A DNA stretch of 53,321 nt from a virus: positions 1-53,321 of the IMG/VR virus record IMGVR_UViG_3300031463_000010; one strand, 5' to 3'. The position numbers and the translations under genes are program-made. The notes under the pieces are model-generated. The model ran no database searches, was not told the origin of the DNA, and saw only the letters and a list, made by a program, of their open reading frames with translations. Each line of letters begins with the position of its first letter. The first letter of the stretch is position 1. This document shows positions 5,360-34,594 of this stretch, piece by piece.

Positions 5360-5559
5360 ACATATTCACAAAATGCAGGCCCGCCGCTGTTCACACTGAC
5401 ACGGCATGGGTCAAGGCGCGTGCATTTCTCACACGGAACGTACCGCCGTAACCTTCCGACATCCTCTATCCTGATACGAGCCCTAGGCTTGCGTCCATGT
5501 TCCACATTCCCTTCATTGTTGATCAGCTCAATCAGTTCGCATACGAGCGTGCCACTCAT
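5350..5559 (-). CDS. small Cys-containing protein, unknown function
   Basis: 69 residues. Cysteines in C-E-K-C and D-P-C plus a late F-C suggest a small zinc knuckle, with a basic stretch before it (R-K-P-R-A-R-I-R). Its ATG overlaps the previous gene's TGA. It is the promoter-distal last gene of the long minus-strand operon. Confidence 0.55.
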   Translation of the reverse strand: MSGTLVCELIELINNEGNVEHGRKPRARIRIEDVGRLRRYVPCEKCTRLDPCRVSVNSGGPAFCEYVED

Positions 5560-6341
5560 ACATACTCAACTCCTGTGTGTCCTAGGACTGCTTGGACATA
5601 TGGAGGCGTGACCGGAAGTCCCTCGCATTCCCTCCATTTGACCCATAGGTTACATAGGAAAATCTTTATCATAGCACGCATTGCCATCATGTGGATGTGA
5701 CCATCCGTGTACTTATGACGGTGCTTCTTCCCAGTACACGCGCTTGCTGGCCTGTTGCATTGTTCACACCACGGCGATCGGTACTTGTTGTGTATGCGCT
5801 CTTTGTAATCGTAGTAGAAACTTACCCATGGCTCTGTCTGGCTGCGTAGGAACTGCTGGCCTATAAGGTAGCATGTGGACTTCAGCGTGTTATTGTAATG
5901 CATCGGCTCTCCAGCCCTCCGGTACTCGCGCTTCCCATCCACGACAGCATATCCGGCGTAGCGCCACAGCGCAGACACTGTCCTGAACTTGCCAATATCG
6001 TCTATTTGTGCGAGCAGCTGGGCTGCAATACCACCAGCGCGCAGTCCATTGAACTGAGTTATCCACGGCCACACTGCGATCTCAGACGCCGCGTTGATCA
6101 TGCTCTCCCGTGCATACTCGACTGCGTCCTCCAGGTTTAAGCGCTTGATCATTGCAGCCTCAAACTCGGCTTCCAGTGCACACGCCCCCCGCTCGACCGC
6201 ACTAATGCGTGCCTTGTGCGCCATCAGCATCCGGTACAGTTCGCGCCAGAAGCTGAATGCCTGGAACAGCTGCGCATGCTTCCTTGGTTTTAGTCTGCGT
6301 GATGTACTGACGTTTGCGTTAGGTAGAAGTTCTTCTTCCAT
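5556..6341 (-). CDS. IS110-type Transposase_20-domain protein lacking the DEDD domain
   Basis: 261 residues, SD AAGGAGG. From about residue 95 it follows the C-terminal (Tnp_20) half of IS110/IS116 transposases: a helix-hairpin-helix-like F-N-G-L-R-A-G-G-I-A-A-Q-L-L-A-Q-I-D-D-I, then W-R-Y-A-G-Y, an R-R-A-G-E-P stretch, a helical Y-Y-D-Y-K-E-R and M-A-M-R-A-M-I-K-I-F. An inserted C-x-x-C / C-x-G-K-K-H-R-H segment looks like a zinc site. The N-terminal RuvC-like DEDD nuclease of real IS110 enzymes is absent; about 90 helical residues replace it. No IS ends are visible and it sits in the operon, so it looks domesticated. Confidence 0.7.
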   Translation of the reverse strand: MEEELLPNANVSTSRRLKPRKHAQLFQAFSFWRELYRMLMAHKARISAVERGACALEAEFEAAMIKRLNLEDAVEYARESMINAASEIAVWPWITQFNGLRAGGIAAQLLAQIDDIGKFRTVSALWRYAGYAVVDGKREYRRAGEPMHYNNTLKSTCYLIGQQFLRSQTEPWVSFYYDYKERIHNKYRSPWCEQCNRPASACTGKKHRHKYTDGHIHMMAMRAMIKIFLCNLWVKWRECEGLPVTPPYVQAVLGHTGVEYV

Positions 6342-11403: not shown

Positions 11404-11408
11404 ATTAC

Positions 11409-11798
11409 CTACCCTACCAGGTAGTTTCGAACTCGCACACGTTTACCGAACTGCGGACTGTCCTCAACCTCAGTCTGAACCCACAACTCACCCCCAACAA
11501 TATCTGCCGTCGAGACACCGTCGTACGGCAGTCCAAGCGCGTCGAACATTGACTTCGTGCGACCGACGCCAGGCCCACTCAGCATCAGGTTGTCATAAAT
11601 GACAGCGCCTGCGTATTCCTCCGGCTCAACGATTACCATCGAGATGGAGAGCATTGGATTGCCAGAGGACTTGGCTGACACTCGCTTCGCTGATGCAACG
11701 CGCACGAAGTACCGCCCAGCAGGCGGAATCTCCAGGCTTGTCAAGTCTAGGCTGATGACGTCATCAGCATGCTCAACAGTTACGTTATTCGGAATCAT
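11409..11798 (-). CDS. DUF669-like protein, probable ssDNA-binding accessory
   Basis: 129 residues, SD GGAGGAG. The layout A-G-R-Y-F-V-R-V, S-A-K-S-S-G-N-P-M-L, E-E-Y-A-G, D-N-L-M-L and a final V-R-N-Y matches the beta-barrel DUF669 family, encoded beside phage recombinases and thought to bind single-stranded DNA. It sits between the Sak4-like ATPase and the primase, consistent with that role. I see no other SSB in the window, so this may be it. Confidence 0.65.
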   Translation of the reverse strand: MIPNNVTVEHADDVISLDLTSLEIPPAGRYFVRVASAKRVSAKSSGNPMLSISMVIVEPEEYAGAVIYDNLMLSGPGVGRTKSMFDALGLPYDGVSTADIVGGELWVQTEVEDSPQFGKRVRVRNYLVG

Positions 11799-12595
11799 TT
11801 TTCACTCCTCCTTAACAGTTTTGTTGCTGTTGGATCCACTATTTCCCTTGGAATCTCCGGGTCATACTGATTCTTTGCATAGTATCGCCCACCACTTTCG
11901 GTAAACAGGACCGAGGCCGTCCTGCGTGTGCCCGTATCCTCGGATGAGGCCACCGATCCATCCGGAAGACGCACGCGGCGCACAAGCCTTCCTACAATGT
12001 TCATATAAGCGGGGATGTGCACCTGTGCCGCGCCTTGGATCATCGGAACGTACGATGAGATAGAGTCCGTCTCATTGGTGATCAGTCGCTCCTGTGCCGT
12101 GACCACCACGTGTAACGGCAGCTGCACAAGCACAGACACCAATGACAGCATCCGAGACAATATCAAGTTCCAGTCCGCCAGCCGCGTTATCGGTGACTGC
12201 GTCAGGTCTATCGGACCAGAAGAGCCTACATCGTACGGAAGACCGGCAACCTCATACACAATAATGCGTTGCAGCTCGGTAATGGTATCCACAACCACCG
12301 TTTTGAAGTTCACGTCCGGTGGTATGTCGTAGCGCTTGCGGAATGAGTGATCAGGCTTCGGCGCGCGCAGAAAGTTGATCACCTCACTGACATCTGAGAA
12401 CGATGTGACGTCGAACACTATCGGCGGCGGATTATTGTCCCGCAGTGTGATTGGATTGCCCGCCGCGTTCAGGATCAACGTGCGCGCCGTGCGCTCGTCC
12501 TGGTCGAACGTGCCACACAGTCGCGTCTTCCCCACACCGCTTGCGCCGTAAACCAGAAGCTTTATGTAAGCTGCTTCAAAGTTGTGTCGTTTCAT
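11795..12595 (-). CDS. Sak4/RecA-like phage ATPase (AAA_24)
   Basis: 266 residues, SD GGAGGAGG. Walker A G17-A-S-G-V-G-K-T24, Walker B V-V-V-D103-T, and a later V-V-T-A-Q-E-R, the order seen in phage AAA_24/Sak4 single-strand annealing ATPases. These are RAD51-like core domains that load on ssDNA, often with a DUF669-type partner, as here. Likely role: recombination-dependent replication or repair. Confidence 0.75.
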   Translation of the reverse strand: MKRHNFEAAYIKLLVYGASGVGKTRLCGTFDQDERTARTLILNAAGNPITLRDNNPPPIVFDVTSFSDVSEVINFLRAPKPDHSFRKRYDIPPDVNFKTVVVDTITELQRIIVYEVAGLPYDVGSSGPIDLTQSPITRLADWNLILSRMLSLVSVLVQLPLHVVVTAQERLITNETDSISSYVPMIQGAAQVHIPAYMNIVGRLVRRVRLPDGSVASSEDTGTRRTASVLFTESGGRYYAKNQYDPEIPREIVDPTATKLLRRSEK

Positions 12596-12795
12596 AGTAC
12601 CTCCTCCAAATCATCTAACGATTCCCGCAGCGCGTGGATGCGCTTGCGGAACGCCTCACACTCACTACCAGATGGTATCCCGCAGTCCTCGTAGAGGCGC
12701 TCCAGGAGACCAAACTGTCGTCGCACAGCTGCAAACAACTGATTAAAACCTACAACAATGGTAACCTCATCTGCAGGCTTCCCGCGCTTGTACAT
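12592..12795 (-). CDS. small helical protein, unknown function
   Basis: 67 residues with SD GGGGAGG, starting inside the 3' end of the nuclease gene and overlapping the next start by four bases. After a short basic start it is one long amphipathic helix or coiled coil (R-R-Q-F-G-L-L-E-R-L-Y, then R-K-R-I-H-A-L-R-E-S-L-D-D-L-E-E). No domain recognised. Confidence 0.6.
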   Translation of the reverse strand: MYKRGKPADEVTIVVGFNQLFAAVRRQFGLLERLYEDCGIPSGSECEAFRKRIHALRESLDDLEEVL

Positions 12796-13862
12796 TCATC
12801 CTCCCCATTTCTATGCTTCATGGTGCTTTCAAGTATCTCCATGTAGTCCACGCCCTCATCCGCTGCGAGACATGCATCTCGCGCCGGACAGTTAGGACAC
12901 TTATAGCGGTCCTTGTACGGCATGGGCAACACCCCGTCCCGTGCACGCCGTGCAGTATACAGCATGTTATGTGCCTCGGTCATGAACTGGTGGAACGTGC
13001 TCTCCACGACACGCTTGCTAACCAACATCTCCTCGCGGTGGAAGAACATACTGTCTCCCGCCTGTGAGAGGTATTCCAACTCCCCAGCGTACAGCTCTAG
13101 TGCAGACTCCTCAGGTATCCCCAACTCGCCAGCACAACGAATGATTGTCTCGCGGTACGCCTGCAGCGTCGTCTGGACGGTGCTACGGACAGCACGGCTG
13201 GGCATGCCATTGCGCAGCAAGGGAATGTCATACGGATCGGTGGTGCTGATGATATTGTAAATCACGCCGTGCACCGGTCGATCAAAAACCTTCTCCGCAG
13301 CCCACGCGTAAATGTACGGCTGAACATCCCATGTGATCCCATGGACGGCACGTGGAACGTTCTTCGTAGTCTTGTGTTCCATAATGTACAAGCCGCCCGT
13401 GCTGCGCCGCACCGCAAGTCCATCCCACGTCCCCGCGACCACGACATCGTATTCCTCCAAGGGGATGTGGAACGTCACTTCGGTGTGGATGACATCAAGG
13501 TCGTCATCAGCACCGCTACGTGCAAGCCAGCTATGATAATTGTTCAACAGCCGTTTGGCAACAAGACACAACTGGTTGTGGTTTTGTTTCTCTTCCTCCA
13601 ACATGCTCGGGCCATACCGATCCAAGTCCTCCTTTACTGCGATGTCGAGCGCGTCGGAAAGTGGTGTGCCGGTGAGGTAGTACAACTCCAGTGCACGGTG
13701 CACCAACGTCCCTAACACAATCCAGTCCGGGCGCTCGCGCGGCTCGAAACCAAGCCCCATGTGCTCGTCCGTCCAATACCACCTGCGTGGACACGAACGG
13801 TATGCGTTGACGCCCGACACATGTACCTGTCTATGTAGCGGCAAAACAATTTTCTTTTCCAT
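12750..13862 (-). CDS. PD-(D/E)XK exonuclease with likely Fe-S cluster (Cas4/AddB-like)
   Basis: 370 residues from ATG 13862, which overlaps the upstream stop (TGATG) and has GGGAGG ten bases before it; the GTG at 13883 does not. Catalytic set: H55 in L-G-T-L-V-H, D147 in G-T-W-D-G, E162-x-K164. One Cys near the N-terminus (C24 in Y-R-S-C-P) and three near the C-terminus (C322, C325, C331) match the Fe-S staple of AddB and Cas4 nucleases. Likely a 5'-3' end-resecting exonuclease feeding the Sak4-like recombinase. There is no Cas context. Confidence 0.85.
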   Translation of the reverse strand: MEKKIVLPLHRQVHVSGVNAYRSCPRRWYWTDEHMGLGFEPRERPDWIVLGTLVHRALELYYLTGTPLSDALDIAVKEDLDRYGPSMLEEEKQNHNQLCLVAKRLLNNYHSWLARSGADDDLDVIHTEVTFHIPLEEYDVVVAGTWDGLAVRRSTGGLYIMEHKTTKNVPRAVHGITWDVQPYIYAWAAEKVFDRPVHGVIYNIISTTDPYDIPLLRNGMPSRAVRSTVQTTLQAYRETIIRCAGELGIPEESALELYAGELEYLSQAGDSMFFHREEMLVSKRVVESTFHQFMTEAHNMLYTARRARDGVLPMPYKDRYKCPNCPARDACLAADEGVDYMEILESTMKHRNGEDECTSAGSLQMRLPLL

Positions 13863-14092
13863 CAGTACGGAGCCTCCCAACACGGTGGATCTCCTGGCAG
13901 CCCTAACTCAACAAAGATCGTATCCGGTGTTGGTGCAATGAAATCGCCATACAACGCTGCCTTCATCCCCCATTCCACACCGTTCCAACGCTCATAGAAG
14001 CATGCCCCGCACATGCACCTACGCACGAACTGTTGGAAGAGTGGGATTAGGACGATCAAGGCCACCACAATCAAGAATTTTCTTCCAGACAT
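13862..14092 (-). CDS. small membrane-anchored Cys protein, unknown function
   Basis: 76 residues, SD AAGGAGG. M-S-G-R-K followed by a hydrophobic segment (about 6-19) is a signal anchor or N-terminal membrane helix. Then comes R-R-C-M-C-G-A-C, a C-x-C-x-x-C cluster that could bind metal or be lipid- or thiol-modified. It lies between helicase and nuclease genes, an odd place for a membrane protein. Confidence 0.6.
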   Translation of the reverse strand: MSGRKFLIVVALIVLIPLFQQFVRRCMCGACFYERWNGVEWGMKAALYGDFIAPTPDTIFVELGLPGDPPCWEAPY

Positions 14093-15417
14093 TGTACGAC
14101 CTCCTTTTCATCTCCATATTTAATGAGTGCTCCTGGACAGCGTTTGCGCAACCATCGCAGCACCGCAAACACGTGATCCTCTTTCCTCTTTATCACATTG
14201 AACATATGCCGATCCACCGTACCTACACACTCCAACTCAATAACGTGCACCCGACGCTTTTGTCCTTGGCGATGGACACGACCGATCGCCTGCTCATGTT
14301 CAAGCCGCGAATACGTTGAATCCCATAAGATCAACGTGTGCAGGTGCTGGAGATTATGCCCATGGGACAGTCTCGCGTACGTCCCTACGACAAACTGATC
14401 CACGTCACTACGCCCGGATTGTTGTAATGCCGCCTTTATCGCGTCCACAGTGGCATTGTACCTTGACATGATGACCGCAGGTGCGCCACCGTTGTCAAGG
14501 TAATCGCGAAACCACAGCATCTTGGCGCTTTCGATACCATCCTCCTGTGGATGGCTAGCACAGCGATGGAGATGTGTGAACCGCGCCACGGCGTTGGTGA
14601 TGAAGACCTGGTACACCTCACCGTCCATCCCTTCCAACTCTACAACCGCACTGTCCTCAAGCCGCTGGTACAGTGCCTGCTGCTTCGGTGGCATCTCCAA
14701 CGGGATGCGTTGTACCAGCGGCTCTTCTGGCATTGGGATGCTTACGTCCTCATGGCGGCGTACCAACAGGTAAGACTCAATCGCCTTGCGGAACGCTATC
14801 GGATTCAACAGCTCACCCACACGCCACGCACCCCACTGGTCAACATATACATCGAACCACATGCGCAGGAATGCCCACTTGGATGTGAACGAGCGTGGAG
14901 CTATCCAATGCAACAGCCCCCACAGGTCGGCAGGACGATCTGCAATGGGCGTTCCGGTGAGTCCCCAGCGGTAGTCGCTGCTCAGCGAGGATATCCCTTT
15001 GGTGCGTTGGGAACGCTTTGCAATGTTGTGTACCTCATCCACTATGACGACCGTCCAGTACTGCTGCTTGAACCAATCACGCACCCTTGAACGGTCATTG
15101 AACTGCTCATAGTGCCCGATAACCCAACGCACCGTAGGCTCTTTGGCAATGATTTCCGGTGTGTCACGCACACCAGAAATCTCCCGAACCGACACGCCAT
15201 GGACGTTGTTTTCCTCCATGACGCGGACGATCTCATCAACCCACCAACGCTTCAACACCTTCGGGCAAATCACTAGGATGTGCCGCCGTGACGACTTCAA
15301 CCACAGCGCGGCGGTTATTGCCTGCCGCGTCTTCCCAAGACCGACAGCATCACCTAGGATCGCACCACGGCGCGTGATTAGGAACTGCGCGCCTTCCTCT
15401 TGGTAATCCCAGAGCAT
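14071..15417 (-). CDS. Snf2-family SF2 helicase
   Basis: 448 residues, compact for the family. Motif I G22-D-A-V-G-L-G-K-T30, motif II D127-E-V-H130, motif III L153-T-G-T-P157, motif VI Q376-A-I-G-R-V-H-R-Q-G-Q386. The Q-G-Q ending and overall pattern place it with Snf2-like translocases, which phages carry for replication or recombination. It overlaps the RuvC-like gene by 40 bases. No extra DNA-binding domain is apparent. Confidence 0.85.
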   Translation of the reverse strand: MLWDYQEEGAQFLITRRGAILGDAVGLGKTRQAITAALWLKSSRRHILVICPKVLKRWWVDEIVRVMEENNVHGVSVREISGVRDTPEIIAKEPTVRWVIGHYEQFNDRSRVRDWFKQQYWTVVIVDEVHNIAKRSQRTKGISSLSSDYRWGLTGTPIADRPADLWGLLHWIAPRSFTSKWAFLRMWFDVYVDQWGAWRVGELLNPIAFRKAIESYLLVRRHEDVSIPMPEEPLVQRIPLEMPPKQQALYQRLEDSAVVELEGMDGEVYQVFITNAVARFTHLHRCASHPQEDGIESAKMLWFRDYLDNGGAPAVIMSRYNATVDAIKAALQQSGRSDVDQFVVGTYARLSHGHNLQHLHTLILWDSTYSRLEHEQAIGRVHRQGQKRRVHVIELECVGTVDRHMFNVIKRKEDHVFAVLRWLRKRCPGALIKYGDEKEVVQCLEENS

Positions 15418-15857
15418 GCCTCAAGCCTCCTCACCAATATATACGCGTGCCGCAGCGCAGCACGACAATGTTCATTTGCGGGAATGTGTGACACATGCTC
15501 ATCGAGCTCACGTGATGAGACCTGTGCCTGTACCGCGGGGTCTTGGAAGGCCAGGCGGTCTCCCACCGCCTCACGGAGCATTCCAATGACCTCAACTGCG
15601 GGGAATGTGCTGCCCATTTGGTGCGTCGGAGCGTACAGGCGGAAGCGCTCTACCAGGACACCGTCCGCAGCACAGGCCAGCCTGCGCAACAGCTTGGCCT
15701 CCTGCGGCCAACTCATCATGTAGAAGCGCATACGAAGTTTGGATCGGTGAACATGCATCGTTACAATACCACAACTCGCCCCAGGATCAATCACCACTAC
15801 TGACCTGTCACCAATCCATACGTCGCTCCGCCAATACGCTCCGCCGTAACACCGCAT
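15378..15857 (-). CDS. RuvC-like Holliday junction resolvase
   Basis: 159 residues from ATG 15857, preceded by GGAGGTGAT; an ATG at 15896 has no SD. RNase H-fold pattern: V-V-V-I-D24-P-G-A-S-C-G, then V-L-V-E70-R-F, and a C-terminal H-C-R-A-A-L-R-H-A helix where RuvC proteins normally carry the last acidic pair as D-A-x-R-H. The last position here reads N-E-H-C, so the final metal ligands are altered. It probably resolves branched DNA before packaging. Confidence 0.7.
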   Translation of the reverse strand: MRCYGGAYWRSDVWIGDRSVVVIDPGASCGIVTMHVHRSKLRMRFYMMSWPQEAKLLRRLACAADGVLVERFRLYAPTHQMGSTFPAVEVIGMLREAVGDRLAFQDPAVQAQVSSRELDEHVSHIPANEHCRAALRHAYILVRRLEACSGITKRKARSS

Positions 15858-15909
15858 CAGTTTTGTATCACCTCCAATTATAGCGTAGCACACCAAGATT
15901 AAAAATGCA

Positions 15910-16367: not shown

Positions 16368-16619
16368 CTACACCATCACCGCGTCAAGACAGTCCAGGCA
16401 AACAGCTGCAGACCTTTTGTTCCGCGCAGCCCATGTACCTTTGGGGATAACCGTCCCGCAGTTCATGCATGGTGCGTCGCTGCGCAGCTTCGCCGCATGC
16501 CAGTGCCCTCCCGCGCGCGCCACGAATGCGAGCAGCTTTTCCGGCGCAGCGCTTTCGTCGCTAAATACTTTGTATAGGCGCTGACCATCCCACATGTAGC
16601 CATCAGGAAGTCCGTCCAT
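16368..16619 (-). CDS. small zinc-finger protein
   Basis: 83 residues, SD GGAGGAG. The C-terminal half carries C-M-N-C and, about 20 residues on, C-L-D-C, the spacing of a zinc ribbon; the N-terminal half is unassigned. It overlaps the first member of the paralogue array by 17 bases. Probably binds nucleic acid or a protein partner. Confidence 0.6.
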   Translation of the reverse strand: MDGLPDGYMWDGQRLYKVFSDESAAPEKLLAFVARAGGHWHAAKLRSDAPCMNCGTVIPKGTWAARNKRSAAVCLDCLDAVMV

Positions 16620-17316
16620 TCCATCTCCTCCAGTCTATCTTGATTTCGTGTTGTGTGCACTTAACTTCTTTCGCGATCGATGTAATCACATTGCGCGCCG
16701 ACGTGTCCACCAGCACACTATTTTTGCTGTGGAATGAAGGACGCCCGTCCAGTGATAACAGGAGCATGTAGCGGTACTCCACACCATAGCGCGTGAACCA
16801 CAGCAGCGAGTTGATGTTGTCACGAAACACCCATGACATACAGGCAAAGCTGTTCAACACCGGAACCGACATCTTCAGCGTGCACACGTGCGAACGCACG
16901 ATCCAGTAGTCCCACGCAAGCACGTCGCAGATCAGACAGTTCCCTTCACGTTCCATGAATTCCTCTAACGAGCGTCGCGTGCGCTTGCTGATTGGAGTGG
17001 TTTCGTCACGGATAACGTCCAGGGCGAACACATCATGCCATTTTTTAAGCAGATTATAGTCACGGGGGGATATTCCGCGAACTTCAACCACACGCGCAGG
17101 TGCATGTACATCCCCTGTGTACGTGTTGAGTGCGAACAACTTCAGTTCGTCCACGTCACCGTAGAGCTCATACGTGTCAAACAGCCTGCGGTCATTCCAT
17201 CGCCAATACAGCTGATGCGCCACTGTCCCACCAATATACACATTGGCGACATTGGTGGTAAGGTTTCTCCTTACGTCAATCACAGTCTCATTGGAAAGAC
17301 GCAACCGTATGGACAT
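16603..17316 (-). CDS. tandem paralogue family, member 1 (promoter-distal)
   Basis: 237 residues, the most diverged of eight consecutive related genes. It keeps G81-I-S-P-R-D86-Y-N-L-L, the following helix with R-T-R-R-S-L, a C-L-I-C-D centre, and R-Y-G-V-E-Y-R near residue 175 where most members have YGRTWR. A T-G-D-V strand precedes the G-x-x-x-R-D motif, as in its relatives. Start ATG 17316 lies inside the 3' end of member 2, with GGGGAG 11 bases upstream. Function unknown. Confidence 0.75.
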   Translation of the reverse strand: MSIRLRLSNETVIDVRRNLTTNVANVYIGGTVAHQLYWRWNDRRLFDTYELYGDVDELKLFALNTYTGDVHAPARVVEVRGISPRDYNLLKKWHDVFALDVIRDETTPISKRTRRSLEEFMEREGNCLICDVLAWDYWIVRSHVCTLKMSVPVLNSFACMSWVFRDNINSLLWFTRYGVEYRYMLLLSLDGRPSFHSKNSVLVDTSARNVITSIAKEVKCTQHEIKIDWRRWNGRTS

Positions 17317-18016
17317 TGTCCGTCAACTCCCCTAATGCTATGTCCTCTGGGGCTTCCTCAAGCAGCTCTGCCAGTACCTTAAAAAGTGTACCACCCTCAC
17401 CGTACGTCGCGTAAACATTCGTGCCCAGCGCTCCTTCGGGGTAGAACGTCCCACGCAGCGCCCGCCATGTACGCCCATAGCGCAGCATGTACGCCTCAAC
17501 GTTTGGGTCGCTGCCCAGCACCATCCACATCTCATCACCGTTGCAGTCAACCTGCAGGTCGGCTTGTCCAACCACGTCCATGACAAGCGCGCGCAGCGAA
17601 CGCTGTATGTAGTCATAGTACAGGTCGCACAGTACGCAGTCGCACGCCAGATAGTGTTCCAGCGAGCGTACTGTGCGCAGGGTAATGTCATTAGGGAGGA
17701 ACGAATGTATGTCGCGTAGGAACGTCTCCGACGTACGCGCACTAAAGCCTTTCACGTAAAAGACGATGGGCCTGTCCCGCGGCGGCACACCGTGGATGAG
17801 GATATGGTGAGGATTGTCATAAATCTTACCTGTGAGTGCGTGCAAGACGCGGCTCTTTCCCACGTGCGCTGACCTGACCAGCACTTGGATGTCATTCCAG
17901 ACCCACGACAACGCCGCCCGTTGCACACCGCGTACCAACACCGCATGCAAGCGCGTGTGGTGCTTAAGCCTACTTGCCATGAGGGGTTCATCATGTATGT
18001 CAAGCATCACCGTCAT
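17288..18016 (-). CDS. tandem paralogue family, member 2
   Basis: 242 residues from ATG 18016 (SD GGAGGT, five-base spacing). G76-V-P-P-R-D81, then L-R-T-V-R-S-L-E, a C-D-C-V-L-C-D cysteine cluster in the same place as member 1, and L-R-Y-G-R-T-W-R. The C-terminus has A-E-L-L-E-E-A-P-E-D-I-A-L, matching the V-P-E-D-x-x ending of members 4 and 5. Its N-terminus is about 20 residues longer than most. Confidence 0.75.
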   Translation of the reverse strand: MTVMLDIHDEPLMASRLKHHTRLHAVLVRGVQRAALSWVWNDIQVLVRSAHVGKSRVLHALTGKIYDNPHHILIHGVPPRDRPIVFYVKGFSARTSETFLRDIHSFLPNDITLRTVRSLEHYLACDCVLCDLYYDYIQRSLRALVMDVVGQADLQVDCNGDEMWMVLGSDPNVEAYMLRYGRTWRALRGTFYPEGALGTNVYATYGEGGTLFKVLAELLEEAPEDIALGELTDNVHTVASFQ

Positions 18017-18656
18017 AGAGCACCTCCAGCTCTGGGACGTACACGTCCTCAGCCAGGCAGTCAAATGCCTCAGCAATGCTTGTACGCAGCTCTGCACCGT
18101 CGCGCGTGTAGCGCACCATGTAATAGACGCTGTGCGCACGCGTACGCCATGATACCAACCTCCAAGAACGTCCGTAGTCCAGTAAGTCCAACGCCTTTTC
18201 TAAGCTTTCGGTAAATGTCATTGTGTTGCGCCCGAACTGCCATAGCGGCACAGCGCCGCTGTAGACCATGCGCGCCTCCAGCGCTATACAGCGCTGCCCA
18301 GGGTCTACGTGGAACATGCAGACCATGTCACACTCGCGTCCACGTGCATATGCCTGCAGCGACGCCAGCGTGCGTGCGGTAAACCTGCGCATGCGCGCCA
18401 GCACTAATACCTCATCCCAAGGCATAAATAGTATAGGCATGAGCGCGTACTGGTCGCGGCGCGACAGACCAGGTATGGTGGTGTATTTCTGGTGCGTTTC
18501 GAAAACCCGTCCTGTCCTCCAGTGCACAATGTATTCCCCTGATAGGCCCTTTGTACACATTGTCACGAAGTCGCTGTCCATGGTACTCCACTGGAGTTCG
18601 ACTGCGCGCCCGCACACCTGTGCGATAACTTTCCCTTCCTGTCTACGTAGTCTCAT
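18000..18656 (-). CDS. tandem paralogue family, member 3
   Basis: 218 residues from ATG 18656, overlapping the stop of member 4 as ATGA. Carries T-G-R-V-F then G63-L-S-R-R-D68, T-A-R-T-L-A-S-L, and D-Y-G-R-S-W-R. The R-T-L-A-S-L helix is identical in member 4, pointing to a fairly recent duplication of these two. No enzyme motif is visible. Confidence 0.75.
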   Translation of the reverse strand: MRLRRQEGKVIAQVCGRAVELQWSTMDSDFVTMCTKGLSGEYIVHWRTGRVFETHQKYTTIPGLSRRDQYALMPILFMPWDEVLVLARMRRFTARTLASLQAYARGRECDMVCMFHVDPGQRCIALEARMVYSGAVPLWQFGRNTMTFTESLEKALDLLDYGRSWRLVSWRTRAHSVYYMVRYTRDGAELRTSIAEAFDCLAEDVYVPELEVLYDGDA

Positions 18657-19267
18657 TTCAGACTTATCTCCTCCCACGGTGGGCAAGTTATTAAAGTTAT
18701 TGCATCCTCTGGCACGCCGCACAAGAATGCCAGCGCACGGCGTATGCCAGAGCACATATCATCATGGTAAACCTCAACATGTGTATACTGTATGAGCTTG
18801 CCAATGCGCGCGTAACGCCACGTACGCCCGTAGCTGAACGCGCGCTCCAACTCATCTCCACTGTTGGCGTTGGCATACGTATACCCGTCCCAATACGGAA
18901 GCAGCGTGCGCGTGTCCTGATACAGGAAAGGCCGCGCCAGCACCTCTCTTCGCATAATCATCTGTACCAAATCCTGTGGCGGGTACGCGCGCAGTGACGC
19001 CAGCGTGCGTGATGTCAACAAACCGCTATATGCCTCTATAATGTCCTCCCACGTCATGTCCATGACGCTGTGCAGAACGTCCCAATCGCGGGGGGATACA
19101 CCATGCAAGTTATACGTGCGCGCTGCACCGAACACCGCGCCGTCGCTGCGCGCGACGAACGGCACAATGTACCATGACGGGCTACAGTACAGTGAGACCT
19201 TATGTAGCCCGTCACTGTACTCAAAAGTGTAAGACCCCTCAACACCGTCAAGCGAGAACTTGTACAT
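18653..19267 (-). CDS. tandem paralogue family, member 4
   Basis: 204 residues from ATG 19267 (SD GGAGGAGG). A good family reference: beta-rich N-terminus, D-G-A-V-F-G, G56-V-S-P-R-D61-W-D-V-L, S-R-T-L-A-S-L, A-R-P-F-L, S-Y-G-R-T-W-R, then G-V-P-E-D-A-I and P-P-W-E-E. Its W-E-E ending recurs in member 5. Confidence 0.8.
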   Translation of the reverse strand: MYKFSLDGVEGSYTFEYSDGLHKVSLYCSPSWYIVPFVARSDGAVFGAARTYNLHGVSPRDWDVLHSVMDMTWEDIIEAYSGLLTSRTLASLRAYPPQDLVQMIMRREVLARPFLYQDTRTLLPYWDGYTYANANSGDELERAFSYGRTWRYARIGKLIQYTHVEVYHDDMCSGIRRALAFLCGVPEDAITLITCPPWEEISLK

Positions 19268-19853
19268 AATCAACCTCCTCCCACGTTGGCAGCTCTGACG
19301 CACTCACCGCGCCCTCTGGGACGCAGAGGATAGCTGCCAGTTTGCTGCGCACCACACTGCCAATGTCATGCGCCTCTACAACACATGTCACCTGCACGCC
19401 GCGTGCACTTATCATGGCGTAGCGCCATGTACGCCCATACCCGTCCAGGCGTTCCACTTCTCCCTCATCAGCGAGATAGTACATCGGCACGTTGGGGGCA
19501 GTGAGCGGCCTTATAGTGCGCACGTAAGGACGCACCACCGCGCGCCCTCCGACAGCTACATAGCACAACATGTCACGCATATCGCATTGTGCGGTGATTG
19601 ACTGCACTGCGCGGCGCGACATTCGTGACTGGCACGCGCACAACACATCACCCCACGACGCACTGAAGCACGTCGCCAGCAATCGCCAGTCGCGTGGTGG
19701 AACGCCAAAAATAGTGCGCACCTCTGGTGGGCCAAATACAAACCCATCACTGGTGCGCACCACAGGTTGTGAATTGCACCACGATAGCCGAGCTGACATC
19801 TTATCGCGTAGCACATCGTCGTGCCACTCAAAGCGGTAATCTATGCTATACAT
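19248..19853 (-). CDS. tandem paralogue family, member 5
   Basis: 201 residues; the ATG overlaps the previous stop as TGATG, with SD GGAGG. D-G-F-V-F-G-P, G50-V-P-P-R-D55-W-R-L-L, V-R-P-Y-V, G-Y-G-R-T-W-R-Y-A and V-P-E-G-A. Several Cys (C-A-C, C-D) have no fixed zinc-finger spacing. Closest in pattern to members 4 and 6. Confidence 0.8.
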   Translation of the reverse strand: MYSIDYRFEWHDDVLRDKMSARLSWCNSQPVVRTSDGFVFGPPEVRTIFGVPPRDWRLLATCFSASWGDVLCACQSRMSRRAVQSITAQCDMRDMLCYVAVGGRAVVRPYVRTIRPLTAPNVPMYYLADEGEVERLDGYGRTWRYAMISARGVQVTCVVEAHDIGSVVRSKLAAILCVPEGAVSASELPTWEEVDYVQVLA

Positions 19854-20494
19854 CAGCGCCTCCAGAAACGGGGTTTATCTACCAGCACAACATCATCTGG
19901 GGAACGCCCAAACGCATTTGCAATGAACTCGCGTACCTCTTGGAACTCGCGGTCGCGGCGCACGGCAATCACCTTCTCGTACCCGTAGACGTACACGTGC
20001 GCCGTCATCCATGTCGCCCCGAAGTCATATATTGCCTCGGCTTCCTCCTCGGTACGCCCTAGCCAATACGCGCTGGGGACGTACCAGTGCAATAGTACTG
20101 GTCTCCCAGTCTTTATGAGTGGCCGATATGTCGCTATACGCGCACTCTGCCAAAAGTCGCAGATTAAGTCGGTTGACTGTAAAACCGCGCCCAGCGATTT
20201 TAGAGCACGCGGACTGAGCCTACCGCTGTCCACAATGCGTGAGAAATCGCGCGCGTGGAACTCTAAGAGCACGCCCCAGTCGCGCGGCGGAACACCCATA
20301 ATCCTGACCTCGCGGATAGGGCCAAACATTGTGCCGTCCGCCAGGCGGACAACGTAGACCTCCCTCGGAGCGATTGAGTAGTGTACGAAGTCTTCAATCG
20401 CTCTTTCGTCCCACCAGAACGCATATTCCAGCGGACGCCCGTCCAGCGTAGAACTTCCCTCTAGGTGAAACCTAAAACGGTCAAACATTCTCAT
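19853..20494 (-). CDS. tandem paralogue family, member 6
   Basis: 213 residues from ATG 20494 (GGAGG, six-base spacing). D-G-T-M-F-G-P, G67-V-P-P-R-D72-W-G-V-L, L-S-P-R-A-L-K-S-L, Y-R-P-L-I, and F-G-A-T-W in place of YGRTW. The end reads F-G-R-S-P-D-D-V-V-L. It has lost the Arg residues of the second motif, so that motif is not strictly required. Confidence 0.75.
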   Translation of the reverse strand: MRMFDRFRFHLEGSSTLDGRPLEYAFWWDERAIEDFVHYSIAPREVYVVRLADGTMFGPIREVRIMGVPPRDWGVLLEFHARDFSRIVDSGRLSPRALKSLGAVLQSTDLICDFWQSARIATYRPLIKTGRPVLLHWYVPSAYWLGRTEEEAEAIYDFGATWMTAHVYVYGYEKVIAVRRDREFQEVREFIANAFGRSPDDVVLVDKPRFWRR

Positions 20495-21071
20495 TGCACG
20501 CCTCCAACTCCAGCTGGCTGGCGTGTAGCCAGCTAGCCACAACCGCGCGCACTATGCCGAGCTCTGGGAACGCGACAGGCAGCGTCCCCAGGAAGACGCC
20601 GTCTACGTAGAGGGACATCATTTGCCATCCCTCCCCGTAGTTTGAAAAGCGTAACAGCGTTTCAGCAGTATCAGCGCTCAAGAACCCATTACGCCTTTCC
20701 CATCTTACGGGTATCTGCGCGACATATGGCCGCAGCACCACCTGACGGTCATCTTGGGTTATACCGACTACATACCAGTCAAGCGGCGCGAGCATACGCA
20801 GCGAGCGGCGTGTACGCATGCTGGCGCGCCGTAGGACGTCCAACACGGTATGTAGCTCACCGTGCACGCCGCGCAGCATACTGCGGTCACGTGGCGATAC
20901 ACCTAACAGTTCTCTGAACTCCCGTGGCCCGTATATGCGGCCACTGCCCAGGTCAAGAACGTAGCTTCCGCAGTTTGGGTACGCTATCGCGTACCAACAT
21001 TGCTCGTCCTCGTACATCACGATACGGGCCTTGCCACCTTCCCAGCGGGCATTAAAGACGTAATCAGTCAT
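20481..21071 (-). CDS. tandem paralogue family, member 7
   Basis: 196 residues, the shortest. S-G-R-I-Y-G-P, G57-V-S-P-R-D62-R-S-M-L, R-T-R-R-S-L, L-R-P-Y-V, N-Y-G-E-G-W-Q. The R-T-R-R-S-L helix matches member 1. Its start overlaps member 8 by eight bases and is served by GGAGGAGG nine bases upstream. Confidence 0.75.
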   Translation of the reverse strand: MTDYVFNARWEGGKARIVMYEDEQCWYAIAYPNCGSYVLDLGSGRIYGPREFRELLGVSPRDRSMLRGVHGELHTVLDVLRRASMRTRRSLRMLAPLDWYVVGITQDDRQVVLRPYVAQIPVRWERRNGFLSADTAETLLRFSNYGEGWQMMSLYVDGVFLGTLPVAFPELGIVRAVVASWLHASQLELEACNENV

Positions 21072-21663
21072 TGCCGAACACCTCCTCCTCTAGTGGGGAA
21101 ACGTCAACCTCTCCACACCAACATGTTATAACCGCCTGTAACTCGCGTAACCCACGAGTTACAGCGAACACACCCAATCTGGTGTAGTCCACCTCCACCG
21201 ATACAATCCGCCATTCACGCCCGTAATAGGCGTAGCGGAAGCACTGTTCGAGGGTGCGCGCCCCCACGAACGTGCTCCTGTGGAGGGAAACGCTCACCCG
21301 TGGAGCACCAACATTCTTGACAAATGGACGAAAGAATGCCAGCCTGCGCGACATGTCCAACTCGCGCACATACCCTTCCGCCCCAAGTGCGGAGCATAGG
21401 GAAGCATACGTGCGCTCGGTGACATATCCGTGCGCATGCCGTATGATTTCGCGTGCCTCCCCCCAATACACGGGCAACTTGTCGCTGTCGCGTGGGGATA
21501 TGCCTCGGATAGGGATAGCCACTTCCCTTCCGTAGACCTTCCCCGTATATATGTCGTACGCGAACTCCCACTCGCTGTGGGGCTCATAGTTCCCACGGCG
21601 AGTGAGTTCGTAGTCCTCGACGGCAATCAATATCTCGCTGCCACTATGTGACCTAATCAACAT
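21064..21663 (-). CDS. tandem paralogue family, member 8 (promoter-proximal)
   Basis: 199 residues from ATG 21663, with GGAGG inside the end of the VWA gene it overlaps. T-G-K-V-Y-G, G54-I-S-P-R-D59, E-R-T-Y-A-S-L, F-R-P-F-V, Y-Y-G-R-E-W-R. As first member after the MoxR-VWA pair it is translationally coupled to the VWA gene, the clearest physical link between the two groups. Confidence 0.75.
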   Translation of the reverse strand: MLIRSHSGSEILIAVEDYELTRRGNYEPHSEWEFAYDIYTGKVYGREVAIPIRGISPRDSDKLPVYWGEAREIIRHAHGYVTERTYASLCSALGAEGYVRELDMSRRLAFFRPFVKNVGAPRVSVSLHRSTFVGARTLEQCFRYAYYGREWRIVSVEVDYTRLGVFAVTRGLRELQAVITCWCGEVDVSPLEEEVFGND

Positions 21664-22786
21664 TCCAGTCCTCCAGCTCAATCCGTCGCACCCAGTGAGG
21701 GGTGCTGGGTGCATTGCGCGGAACTACCGCGACTACCTCGAACGGTGGACGCTCCCCCCACGGCGTGTAGCCATCGGTTATTACAACGGCTACACGCACG
21801 CGAGTTTTCCGTTGCGCTTCCCGTGCGAGCGCGAGCATGTCCGTACCACCGCCGCCGACTAGCTTTACCTCGGTGGCGCGCCTTACCTGCTGCAGCGTAG
21901 CCACCTCGGTATCGCCTGTGGCGACGTACACAGGCGTATTCAGTGCCCGTGTAACCCCGTCTATTACCTCCAGCGCACGGCGCAGTTCGCGCTCCGACAT
22001 GCTCCCCGACGTATCGGCGCATAGTACGACGCTTGGCACATCGGTCACCCAGCGCGGCGTCAGTACGGGAGCGCGCGCCGCGCTCCTGCGTCCAGGACGC
22101 GTCCAACACGCACGGTTGTCCCCCTCGCGCGTGAGCGCATTTGACAGAATGCGCCGCAACAGCGCAGTAGGTGTAGGCCGTGGCGCTAAAACGCCGTCAG
22201 CCCACCTACGTAGCCCCTGCGACGCGTCCCCCCATTGCCGCACTGCCACAGCAACCTGCGCTGCAATGGCGGGAGTTTCCGCAGCGGCGGCCTCGTCCAC
22301 GGGGAGCTCCCACGGACGCTGATGGCCATCCGCACCGCTGCCAGCGAGCACAAGGCTGCTGGCGGCAATGTCGGCCAGGCCGTCGCTATTCAACTGGGAA
22401 GCATAGAACTCCGCCGTTTTTTGTGGGGGACTTTTAAAGGAGCTGGGGGTCACCGCCCCCTGTGGCAGTCGCCACGGCGGCAGCTGAAGGTCATCATTAA
22501 TCTCAGCGTCCCCTGCCAGGTTGGCAATCACCTGCGGGAGCGCTGATAGCCGAGCGTAATGACCCCGTAACAGGTGCGTGGCCTCGTGCACCAATACGGT
22601 GGCTTGCTCGGCCACGTCTAGCTGCTGCCACCAGTCGGGGTTGACGTACAGCCGCCAGCTGGTGTCAACGGCAGCCGTGCCAACCTCGGAGGATATGACC
22701 TCGCGTAGACGATACACTGCAACCGCTAGTGGGGGTGCAATCAGCGCCACCCGTGCACGTGCGCGGGAGATAACGCTACCGTTCAT
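21653..22786 (-). CDS. VWA-domain / putative metallopeptidase protein, MoxR partner
   Basis: 377 residues. N-terminal metallopeptidase-like part with H67-E68-A-T-H71, then about 150 residues of linker and helices, then a VWA domain with a full MIDAS: D258-T-S-G-S262, T315 in G-G-G-G-T-D and D338 in V-I-T-D-G. This is the arrangement of the 'VWA-like plus metallopeptidase' (DUF2201-type) proteins that partner MoxR AAA ATPases; such an ATPase is encoded just upstream. Known MoxR-VWA pairs act as chaperone-like remodelling or metal-insertion machines. The target here is unknown. Confidence 0.85.
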   Translation of the reverse strand: MNGSVISRARARVALIAPPLAVAVYRLREVISSEVGTAAVDTSWRLYVNPDWWQQLDVAEQATVLVHEATHLLRGHYARLSALPQVIANLAGDAEINDDLQLPPWRLPQGAVTPSSFKSPPQKTAEFYASQLNSDGLADIAASSLVLAGSGADGHQRPWELPVDEAAAAETPAIAAQVAVAVRQWGDASQGLRRWADGVLAPRPTPTALLRRILSNALTREGDNRACWTRPGRRSAARAPVLTPRWVTDVPSVVLCADTSGSMSERELRRALEVIDGVTRALNTPVYVATGDTEVATLQQVRRATEVKLVGGGGTDMLALAREAQRKTRVRVAVVITDGYTPWGERPPFEVVAVVPRNAPSTPHWVRRIELEDWNVD

Positions 22787-23046
22787 CGCCCACCCCCGAG
22801 CATGACAACTGCCAAGGCCGCGTCCAGCTCGGCACTGATGTTCTCGTTCTCGTCCGCAGCCGCACCACTCTCTAGCACGCGCACCAGCTCATCACCGTGC
22901 TGGAACACGGCTTCCGCGGCTTCTGGGGATAGCCTTAGAAGCCACTCGTCAAATTCTTTCGCCCCCTGCCCCACTGGGGGGCTGGTGCGTTCCCCCATGT
23001 GCCAGGCGAGCATTGCCTTGACGCTTTTTAGACATGCCTTACGCAT
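22783..23046 (-). CDS. small acidic helical protein between MoxR and VWA genes
   Basis: 87 residues, SD GGGAGGAGAG. Basic N-terminal 15 residues, then acidic helices (F-D-E-W-L-L-R-L-S-P-E-A-A-E-A, then D-E-N-E-N-I-S-A-E-L-D-A-A). It is located between the two halves of the MoxR-VWA pair and overlaps the VWA start by four bases, so it may be a third subunit. No match recognised. Confidence 0.55.
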   Translation of the reverse strand: MRKACLKSVKAMLAWHMGERTSPPVGQGAKEFDEWLLRLSPEAAEAVFQHGDELVRVLESGAAADENENISAELDAALAVVMLGGGR

Positions 23047-23057
23047 TTCTCTCCTCC

Positions 23058-24146
23058 CTACATCATACCAATGTCACGCAAGAGTGCGGACGCGCGCCTT
23101 AAGACGTCCGTGGGGATGCGTAGGCGATTGCGCACCCCTGCCTGTGCTAGGACGCGTATGGCTGGCACGGCAACGTCCTCGGACGCCTCAAGCGCTCTTA
23201 AGATAACACCCCAGCACGCCTCCCATATTTTGGGAAGTTCTTCCGAATTGGCTGCCCACGCGGCCAGCTGTGAAAGCGCCGCCCACGCCTCCTCTGGCCG
23301 CGTGGGGAGCGGTGCTCCTGCGAGCAGCTCCTGTGGGGATGGCAATTTTACCGTCTCTACCCACCCACGGAACTGCGCTGCCGCGCCGCGCCCCACCGCC
23401 CCACAGAGCAATGGGAACGCCACCGCCCACATGGCGTCCCCGAACGTGGCGTCACAAGCCACGAGCAGTGGCAGCGCAAGACCATACCATCCCCGAGGAG
23501 TAGGCACGGTATAGTCGCCCTCAGCAACCTCGTCACCGCACAGTGGGGATGGGTGGGCATGTCCCATGGCGCGCGCGAACGCGGCAATGCGCGCACGCCA
23601 GATTGGTAGATTATTTTCCCACCCTTTAGGCAATAGGGGGATTTTAGGGGTAGGAAAGTCCGCAATCACCCCCTCTGCCCACTGGTCAACGTCAAGATTG
23701 ACCTCCACGTGGGCTAGTCTAGTAAGGACGGGTAGCGGAATATCCGCATTCCCATACTGGGCAGAGGAGTTTGTCGCTGCCACAATAGAAACACCTTGGG
23801 GTAGCGCGTGCACGCCTGCGCGCCGCTCTAGTATAAGACCTAGCGCAGCGTTCAGCGTGGCTGGACGCGCCGCGCCAAGGTCATCAAGGAACAAAATGTC
23901 CCCATCTTTCACGGCCACGAGCCAATGGGGTGGTGCTACACGCACCATCCCCTCTGTAACGTAGGGGATACCACCTAGGTCTTCGGGCAGCAGTAATGAG
24001 AGCTCTAGAACGTGGAGCGTGCGGTTTAACGCTTTTGCTATTGCACGCAGCCCAGCCGTCTTTCCGACGCCAGGGTCACCGTGCATAAGCACGGGAACAC
24101 CCGTTTGTAGCGCTATCGCAACTTGGTCTACTGTGTTATAATTCAT
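23058..24146 (-). CDS. MoxR-type AAA+ ATPase
   Basis: 362 residues from ATG 24146 (SD GGAGGAGG); the 24206 start has none. Walker A G23-D-P-G-V-G-K-T30, Walker B L-F-L-D88-D, sensor 1 A-A-T-N126, and the P-E-D-L-G-G segment typical of MoxR proteins. The C-terminal 150 residues are helical and Trp/Ala rich. Expected to form a hexameric ring that works with the VWA protein. Confidence 0.85.
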   Translation of the reverse strand: MNYNTVDQVAIALQTGVPVLMHGDPGVGKTAGLRAIAKALNRTLHVLELSLLLPEDLGGIPYVTEGMVRVAPPHWLVAVKDGDILFLDDLGAARPATLNAALGLILERRAGVHALPQGVSIVAATNSSAQYGNADIPLPVLTRLAHVEVNLDVDQWAEGVIADFPTPKIPLLPKGWENNLPIWRARIAAFARAMGHAHPSPLCGDEVAEGDYTVPTPRGWYGLALPLLVACDATFGDAMWAVAFPLLCGAVGRGAAAQFRGWVETVKLPSPQELLAGAPLPTRPEEAWAALSQLAAWAANSEELPKIWEACWGVILRALEASEDVAVPAIRVLAQAGVRNRLRIPTDVLRRASALLRDIGMM

Positions 24147-24166
24147 TTTCCTCCTCCAAGTGATTG

Positions 24167-24201
24167 CGTCCAACCTACACCACGGTAGTGTAGGTTGGAC
24201 G
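24167..24201 (-). other. strong 14-bp hairpin ahead of the MoxR gene
   Basis: Perfect 14-bp inverted repeat (24167-24180 and 24188-24201) with a seven-base loop, filling the only real gap near the operon's start. There is no T-run, and the MoxR SD lies just downstream on the minus strand. It could be an attenuator, an RNase processing site, or a 3'-end protector for the two upstream genes. Confidence 0.7.
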
Positions 24202-24208
24202 GGCACGA

Positions 24209-24562
24209 CTACAGCTCAAACGCACAGAATGTAGTGCCATCTTCAGCGACGGCACGTGCGCCACCATCAGCCATTTCAACTATCAGCTTTGCTATTGGAC
24301 TGTCCTCCTCCAAGATAACCGCTTTCCCTACCTCGACGGTAGGGTACACGGTTTTATCGCACGGGTAGAATGTGTCCAATATGCGACGGGCTGCCTCGAC
24401 GTCGGGCATACCCTCATAAAACGGCGTAGGCGCGCCGCAAATTGCTAATGCCCATCTTACCTTCACTCTGGCCTCTACCTCATCGGCTTCTTCAGCCTGC
24501 GCGATGACCTCTTCAGCCTCATTGAGTGCCTCTAAAGCACTTTCCCTAAACGTCTTAAACAT
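24209..24562 (-). CDS. small acidic protein, unknown function
   Basis: 117 residues, SD AGGAGGT. N-terminal acidic helix (A-L-E-A-L-N-E-A-E-E-V-I-A-Q-A-E-E), then a mixed alpha/beta part ending G-T-T-F-C-A-F-E-L. It is the second gene after the operon promoter, so expected early. No domain recognised. Confidence 0.6.
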   Translation of the reverse strand: MFKTFRESALEALNEAEEVIAQAEEADEVEARVKVRWALAICGAPTPFYEGMPDVEAARRILDTFYPCDKTVYPTVEVGKAVILEEDSPIAKLIVEMADGGARAVAEDGTTFCAFEL

Positions 24563-24568
24563 TTTCGC

Positions 24569-24877
24569 TTACCTCCTGTATCTTATTTCAATCACAGCAA
24601 ACTTGCGCGCGCCAATAATGACGTAAGGCGCGCGCCGAAAGGCCTCGACGGCCTCCAACGCGCGCCGCTCCTCGTCCGTCAATTCTATTGGTGGACGTTC
24701 TATTGCGTCCAATAGGGCACGTGCGAACCGCAGCGTGCGTGTTCCGTCCTTTTCCCGAAATGGCACGTATCCCGTGTCAATGTGGGCCAGTGCCAGTATG
24801 CTTTTCATTATGTCCACCGCTTCAGGCAGCGGTGCACTGTCCACTTGTTTTAGTAATTCTTTTTCTTTGTTCGCCAT
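24569..24877 (-). CDS. small protein, first gene of the long minus-strand operon
   Basis: 102 residues, SD GGAGGAG, about 22 bases downstream of the predicted transcription start. Charged N-terminal helix (K-E-K-E-L-L-K-Q), E-L-T-D-E-E-R-R-A-L-E-A-V helix, then Y-V-I-I-G-A-R-K-F-A-V-I-E-I. First-transcribed position suggests an early takeover or host-interaction role (inference only). Confidence 0.6.
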   Translation of the reverse strand: MANKEKELLKQVDSAPLPEAVDIMKSILALAHIDTGYVPFREKDGTRTLRFARALLDAIERPPIELTDEERRALEAVEAFRRAPYVIIGARKFAVIEIRYRR

Positions 24878-24905
24878 TTTCTTTCTCCTCCAATGTTTTG
24901 ACTAC

Positions 24906-24934
24906 ATTGTACCACAAAATTTTGCGTTTGTCAA
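24906..24934 (-). promoter_or_regulatory. sigma-70 promoter of the long minus-strand operon
   Basis: On the minus strand: TTGACA (24934-24929), 17-base spacer, TACAAT (24911-24906), with TGG before the -10. Predicted start near 24899. It is the only clear promoter for the roughly 19.5-kb operon down to 5350. Directly upstream of the -35 lie two 20-bp tandem repeats. Confidence 0.85.
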
Positions 24935-24974
24935 GGGGTTAGTGCGCAAGTGACGGGGTTAGTGCGCAAGTGCC
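24935..24974. repeat. two tandem 20-bp repeats abutting the operon -35
   Basis: Units 24935-24954 and 24955-24974 (GGGGTTAGTGCGCAAGTG plus two bases) differ at one position. Their place immediately upstream of the operon's -35 box is that of an activator or repressor site. The internal TGCGCA is palindromic. Confidence 0.75.
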
Positions 24975-25014
24975 AAAAGACAACAGGGGGTTGACGCCAC
25001 CCCCTGTGTCTTTT
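24975..25014 (-). terminator. rho-independent terminator after the 63-residue gene
   Basis: A 15-bp stem with one bulged A (24975-24990 with 25000-25014) and a nine-base loop, flanked by AAAA on one side and TTTT on the other, so it could act in both directions. It closes the 25223-25032 cassette before the next promoter. Confidence 0.8.
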
Positions 25015-26282: not shown

Positions 26283-26495
26283 TTATAGTGTTATGATTTT
26301 CACATCTTTCACCTCTCTCGCTAGGTTTGGTACTTCTAGGTAATAGCCACAATCGCTACTGTCTATAAGTACTATAAACGTGCCTCTTATGCCTCTACCG
26401 CACCAATTACATATACCGTGACTGGCTGCACGAGCTTTCTTGTCTACTGTTTCTCTTGCGATATGGGCACATTGCCTACACAGGTTTCGTTTCAT
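26283..26495 (-). CDS. small zinc-ribbon protein, second gene of an early cassette
   Basis: 70 residues, SD GGGGGTG. C-R-Q-C-A-H at the N-terminus and C-N-W-C-G about 22 residues later form a four-Cys zinc ribbon; the rest is a beta-rich tail (G-T-F-I-V-L-I-D, Y-Y-L-E-V). Follows the 116-residue gene by 11 bases and shares its promoter. Confidence 0.65.
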   Translation of the reverse strand: MKRNLCRQCAHIARETVDKKARAASHGICNWCGRGIRGTFIVLIDSSDCGYYLEVPNLAREVKDVKIITL

Positions 26496-26506: not shown

Positions 26507-26857
26507 CTATGCTGTTGCGTCCACGGGTTCTACGTACATTAAAATCCCATTCAGGTCTACCATGCCATATCTTTTGAATTCTTTAATCTTCTCTTCAAAT
26601 TGCTCTGTTTCTAGGTACTCTATTGTGATGACACCTTCTGACAAGGTGTCTTTCTTTGTGGGAAAGTACATTCTTTCCCAAGTATCAGAAAACGCCAGAG
26701 CCCAAACATGTCCTATGGGTGCGCCACATATGGCACATACCCCCCGTGCTTCTCTCTTGTTCTTGACGGGGGTTAGGTCACCCATGTCGTGCGAACCGTG
26801 CGAAGCACATACGAGACATACGAGCTCATCATCTCTATTTTTATATGCGTGTATCAT
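26507..26857 (-). CDS. small zinc-binding protein, first gene of an early cassette
   Basis: 116 residues, SD AGGAGG. Two Cys pairs, C-L-V-C-A-S-H and C-A-I-C-G, about 26 residues apart suggest a zinc ribbon in the first half; the second half is alpha/beta (V-I-T-I-E-Y-L-E-T-E-Q-F-E-E-K-I-K-E-F). It starts about 24 bases after the predicted transcription start. With its partner it resembles small early-expressed regulators or anti-host proteins, but nothing shows which. Confidence 0.65.
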   Translation of the reverse strand: MIHAYKNRDDELVCLVCASHGSHDMGDLTPVKNKREARGVCAICGAPIGHVWALAFSDTWERMYFPTKKDTLSEGVITIEYLETEQFEEKIKEFKRYGMVDLNGILMYVEPVDATA

Positions 26858-34406: not shown

Positions 34407-34594
34407 TAAACGATGTGAAGCGTGGTTATCGCGGCGCACTTGAGGCATGGTACAAGATTCTGCGCACCTCATTGGAAGCACAGCAGCGCTCTGAGCCTGA
34501 ACGCCCGAGCAATGCACCTCCGCGCGTTCCAAAATTCATTCTGCGTGATTATTTGGTGAGGTTACAGGATGAAGTTTACCGGAACCGGCGGTGA
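34403..34594 (+). CDS. small basic helical protein before the giant gene
   Basis: 63 residues: a first helix (A-L-E-A-W-Y-K-I-L-R-T-S-L-E-A), a Pro-rich middle (P-S-N-A-P-P-R-V-P), and a second basic helix (Y-L-V-R-L-Q-D-E-V-Y-R-N-R-R). Overlaps the giant gene start by 26 bases, so it is probably translated in tandem with it. Confidence 0.5.
   Translation: MINDVKRGYRGALEAWYKILRTSLEAQQRSEPERPSNAPPRVPKFILRDYLVRLQDEVYRNRR

Follow-up and report, generated by a model that had tools for sequence, protein, structure and literature searches.

Eukaryotic DNA viruses carry tandem multigene families, such as the MGF of ASFV and the families of herpesviruses, in which diverged copies are arranged head to tail in a host-interaction region. 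The array described here, consisting of the adjacent genes m1 to m8 of a tailed phage, is comparable to these families by analogy only. For phages, the literature searched on tandem paralog arrays contained no direct precedent. Among the systems coming closest are Ip1-Ip3 of T-even phages, with T4 keeping several inhibitors of variants of one defense family (PMC12373910). The likeness lies in one phage possessing several small proteins, each directed (in case of the array presumably) against a different host-defense variant; however, Ip1-3 are apparently non-homologous, are encoded at two loci, possess a packaging signal at the N-terminus and enter the cell by injection (PMC12373910), whereas the array comprises eight homologous copies in one operon, has no conserved N-terminus and is known from its genes alone. 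Diverged copies of one domain kept in one genome have been described for Bacillus phage 0305phi8-36, whose paralog families were read as functional specialization and which also possesses a MoxR gene pair (PMC2147016). These families are mainly virion domains and scattered (PMC2147016), whereas the array is made up of eight complete genes lined up head to tail in a replication train. Chaperone-like pairs of MoxR and VWA proteins with dedicated partners, of the RavA-ViaA type (PMC3893208), are resembled by a MoxR-like ATPase and a VWA protein encoded directly upstream of the array; however, the array proteins match the families of neither partner, and there are related VWA genes in phages that lack such an array.

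The analyzed stretch (the window) is the complete IMG/VR record IMGVR_UViG_3300031463_000010, 53,321 bases of a tailed phage that has been seen in metagenomic sequence only. This record is an incomplete, linear fragment, since a sister contig with 93-94% identity runs 2.28 kb beyond its right end. Terminase and major capsid genes are found on its plus strand, together with a large ORF placed where a portal gene is expected and an ORF of 3,600 aa (34569-45371), which takes up a fifth of the record and is without PHROG match. On the minus strand, the array is located in a same-strand replication train, away from the virion genes. It is preceded by the gene of a MoxR-like AAA+ ATPase (23058-24206; PHROG 1297, E 3.7e-41; PF07728, E 9.7e-9) and that of its probable partner, a DUF2201 putative metallopeptidase with a VWA-like domain (21653-22786; Pfam PF13203, E 2.1e-24, and PF09967, E 7.5e-18), whose 3′ end overlaps m1 by 11 nt. 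Behind the array, the operon continues with the gene of a small Cys4 protein of 83 aa found in the ORF list (16368-16619), which overlaps the end of m8, and, according to PHROGs matches, with genes for a PHROG 1981 protein of unknown function, helicase, exonuclease, Sak4-like annealing protein, SSB, primase and DNA polymerase A (6645-15896). The PHROG 1981 protein (172 aa, 15378-15896) starts with V-x-D-P-G-x-x-x-G, which recalls RuvC-like resolvases as a resemblance only. Paired CxxC motifs, probably zinc-binding, are present in the 83-aa protein as well as in two further small minus-strand proteins (26507-26857 and 26283-26495), at least the latter two looking alike by eye.

The eight consecutive minus-strand genes of 196-242 residues proposed for positions 16603-21663 in the original prediction were recovered from the ORF coordinates. 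Given with the E-values of the leave-one-out searches discussed below, these are m1 (21064-21663, 199 aa, E 2.9e-21), m2 (20481-21071, 196 aa, E 1.2e-23), m3 (19853-20494, 213 aa, E 1.2e-22), m4 (19248-19853, 201 aa, E 4.8e-32), m5 (18653-19267, 204 aa, E 2.4e-25), m6 (18000-18656, 218 aa, E 1.4e-17), m7 (17288-18016, 242 aa, E 6e-15; its start was picked by the Shine-Dalgarno (SD) sequence GGAGG and is somewhat uncertain) and m8 (16603-17316, 237 aa, E 4.9e-18). All eight ORFs are intact. The array covers 9.5% of the record; the tenth of the genome estimated before thus fits the record, but this is a linear fragment and not a whole genome.

As had also been predicted, gene ends overlap the following starts throughout, with overlaps of 1-29 nt and every one of the eight starts lying inside the preceding gene. 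All members begin with ATG, preceded at a distance of 5 to 13 nt by an exact GGAGG (7 of 8 starts, m1 included) or by GGAGT (m8). This pattern of overlap and SD sequence is also present where the array adjoins the VWA gene on one side and the 83-aa gene behind m8 on the other. Since the SD sequence lies inside the preceding gene, the last codons of each gene include the ribosome-binding site of the next one, and the recurring C-terminal L-E or W-E-E is therefore partly forced by the GGAGG encoded there. A duplicated unit of one ORF plus the SD sequence of the next gene would retain working translation.

Comparisons at the sequence level confirmed that m1 to m8 form one protein family. A profile built from seven members recovered the eighth in every case, at E-values from 6e-15 to 4.8e-32, with the best other ORF at 0.028 or worse (3,654 ORFs of the window and of fetched loci, plus shuffled copies). 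Profile-profile comparisons between subgroups gave probabilities of 96-97% over 122-146 columns, BLASTP connected most pairs and every member to others, and a family profile found exactly eight copies in the record, although pairwise identities range from 15 to 34% only. That overlapping frames merely look alike, by chance or as an ORF artifact, was rejected as practically negligible in view of these E-values, the SD sites and the codon-position signal described below.

Conservation is concentrated in a core of about 80 residues, in which G-x-[V/I]-[F/Y]-G is followed by G-[V/I/L]-x-x-R-D, R-[T/A]-x-x-S-L and a hairpin, and in a second site behind it, Y-G-x-x-W, while the N- and C-terminal flanks drift. 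In m5 numbering, the invariant residues are G43, G56, R60, D61, R87, S91 and G147, and R112 is kept in 7 of 8 members. Of the G-(V/I/L)-x-x-R-D motif only G, R and D had been expected to be invariant, which is correct for these three, but R87, S91 and two more glycines have to be added. A V-P-E-D said to occur often near the end was not confirmed as such; it is exact only in m5, with VPEG in m4, APED in m7 and SPDD in m3. Mean identity amounts to 25.6% in the core, 18.7% in the N flank and 17.2% in the C flank, a distribution to be expected if surfaces change on a constant scaffold. The low value of the N flank also bears on the idea that the members are minor virion proteins or ejected proteins carried into the cell, as the N-terminus is the expected site of a packaging signal. 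Multi-copy ejected anti-restriction proteins do exist, the T4 Ip proteins being an example (PMC12373910), but the array lies inside the replication train, with terminase, capsid and tail genes occupying the other strand, which makes a virion role very improbable.

Structure prediction by AlphaFold with the eight-row alignment yielded partly confident models with a pLDDT of 65 for m1 and 60 for m5. The core is confident in both (block means of about 86-96 for residues 51-100 of m5), whereas the first 30 residues and the larger part of the C-terminal half are unreliable, and the two models agree on the core only. There, both show the same order of elements, namely a hairpin plus strand, a short helix at R-D, a short strand, a helix, a helix ending in R-T-x-x-S-L and a two-stranded hairpin. 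Of the one shared fold that the original prediction had set as a check, the two members modeled thus show a common order of core elements, from which we infer one fold common to all eight. Foldseek searches with both models against PDB and BFVD gave nothing significant (best E 0.32 and 0.45); a weak BFVD row was R4TA16 of Haloarcula virus HCTV-2 (E 2.0).

Within the part modeled with confidence, the elements of m1 and m5 follow what may be the winged-helix order H1-S1-H2-H3-S2-S3, H1 being very short in m1. Together with several conserved arginines (R60 and R87, and R112 in 7 of 8 members), this order of helix, short strand, two helices and two-stranded hairpin might imply that the members act as regulators that bind nucleic acids and have a winged-helix-like core, each recognizing different promoters or sites. 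However, no winged-helix match rose above noise in Foldseek, although such folds abound in the PDB; the only one recognized among the listed matches was BlaI (1sd4) at E 7.2 and a Foldseek probability of 0.03. Furthermore, no HTH family was matched significantly, and the majority of the members are acidic or neutral. The winged-helix likeness of the modeled core may therefore be taken as a weak lead, and a regulatory function appears unlikely. Net charges across the members range from about -6 to +5 and pI values from 5.3 to 9.0, a spread more in line with different partners than with a single polyanionic ligand common to all.

Identity at codon positions 1, 2 and 3 is 38, 43 and 31%, respectively, in comparison to 27, 26 and 27% expected. 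As positions 1 and 2 exceed expectation and position 3 is near chance, the duplications are old and the array members are constrained at the protein level. The original prediction took diversity itself to be selected; what the codon positions show is this constraint. With third positions almost at chance identity, dN/dS within the array is saturated, and the divergence is too deep for a recent arms-race amplification to be visible. The closest pairs tend to be neighbors (m4/m5 with 34%, m3/m4 with 27%, m1/m2 with 26%), a tendency which is not significant (permutation p = 0.053), and m3-m4-m5 is the sole moderately supported group (support 91/91). Every copy being intact and constrained is also what would be expected if the copies were subunits of one hetero-oligomeric machine, for example an asymmetric ring or a replisome accessory, in which all eight are required at once; coupled translation would give matched stoichiometry, and replication genes adjoin the array. 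Yet array neighbors diverge nearly as much as distant copies, and no interface motif is conserved beyond the core and Y-G-x-x-W. An obligate assembly of this kind is thus regarded as improbable.

In agreement with the original prediction, which recognized no known family, none was found in any of the libraries and collections searched, and the family appears new at the sequence level. Scanning of the eight members yielded best E-values of 0.095 in PHROGs, 0.13 in Pfam and 0.13 in NCBIfam, each for a single member, and none of the PADLOC models was matched convincingly (best 0.028, likewise a single member). The profile search of PDB sequences gave a best E of 0.51, and tblastn of m1-m5 in named phages and of m5 in plasmids returned only hits with E > 1. 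No homolog was confirmed in scans of IMG/VR with single-member, subgroup-alignment and concatenated-member queries, nor in one subgroup scan of GTDB genomes; since such collection scans depend on near-exact stretches of eight residues and on confirmation by a single sequence, they may overlook distant relatives. The family profile found no member in the records of 31 relatives (18 contigs obtained via TerL and 13 via the VWA protein), a helicase-based scan for relatives found nothing, and VWA loci contained no comparable set of tandem paralogs. Arrays of the family in other phages, which had been named as support for a new family, were accordingly not encountered in the profile, tblastn and collection searches.

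The 13 contigs obtained via the VWA protein are also informative with respect to the possibility that the members serve the neighboring MoxR AAA+ and metallopeptidase-VWA machine as adaptors or clients, with the ATPase remodeling or targeting complexes and each member supplying a different substrate specificity. The dedicated partners of chaperone-like MoxR and VWA pairs (PMC3893208) speak for such a link, as does the overlap of m1, which has its own SD sequence, with the VWA stop. On the other hand, none of these 13 IMG/VR contigs with a related VWA protein carries the family (profile, E <= 10), even though some of them cover 5-10 kb downstream of the VWA gene, and adjacency in a compact operon is weak as evidence. 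A coupling to this machine is hence considered rather unlikely. Sister contig 3300026280_000006 is 93-94% identical to the window over most of 27-53 kb, patchily similar at 25-27 kb and 75% identical at the DNA level at 23.0-25.0 kb (23046-25014, the MoxR region). As the array-adjacent stretch is only 75% identical, the neighborhood of the array evolves fast. Two near-identical sister contigs end before the array, with 3300026280_000006 stopping just short of it.

For a record of about 53 kb, maintaining eight deeply diverged copies comes at a cost, and the family therefore probably has a task for which the phage requires several versions. From the anatomy of the locus and the T4 precedent, the best explanation, to be held tentatively, is that the array is a panel of early host-interaction proteins, serving host takeover or anti-defense, with one target variant per copy. 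The original prediction, which had also considered host-interaction and anti-defense proteins, is in this respect plausible. According to this explanation, a lineage-specific multigene family would have arisen by old in-place tandem duplication of a unit of 600-700 bp, each unit being one ORF whose 3′ end bears the SD site of the next unit. All eight genes are probably translated in a coupled manner, presumably from a single mRNA of the same-strand replication train. The products would be small soluble proteins that share a core of hairpin, G-x-x-R-D loop, two or three helices and hairpin but differ in their N- and C-terminal surfaces. Most likely early in infection, these proteins may bind several different host targets and block or redirect them. 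Against such a panel, the conservation of R60, D61, R87 and S91 could instead point to a ligand or an activity common to the members. A farther-reaching form, in which an undescribed superfamily with a new fold provides an eight-member panel, each member neutralizing or recruiting a different host factor and specificities being added by duplication of the self-coupling unit, is possible but doubtful. Should every copy prove to have a host target of its own, the array would represent a ready-made probe set for undiscovered defense or takeover targets in an uncultured host, and it would also illustrate how phages gain specificities through duplication of a unit bearing the ribosome-binding site of the next gene.

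Beyond the array and its surroundings, an IS110-type protein is encoded on the minus strand at 5556-6341 (PHROG 4285, E 7.5e-37; weak match to Pfam Transposase_20). Only its C-terminal part is recognizable, and the DEDD N-terminal domain of IS110 was found nowhere in the record. Near the left end, an ORF of 292 aa on the plus strand contains three in-frame 75-nt repeats at 185-409 and looks tail-fiber-like.
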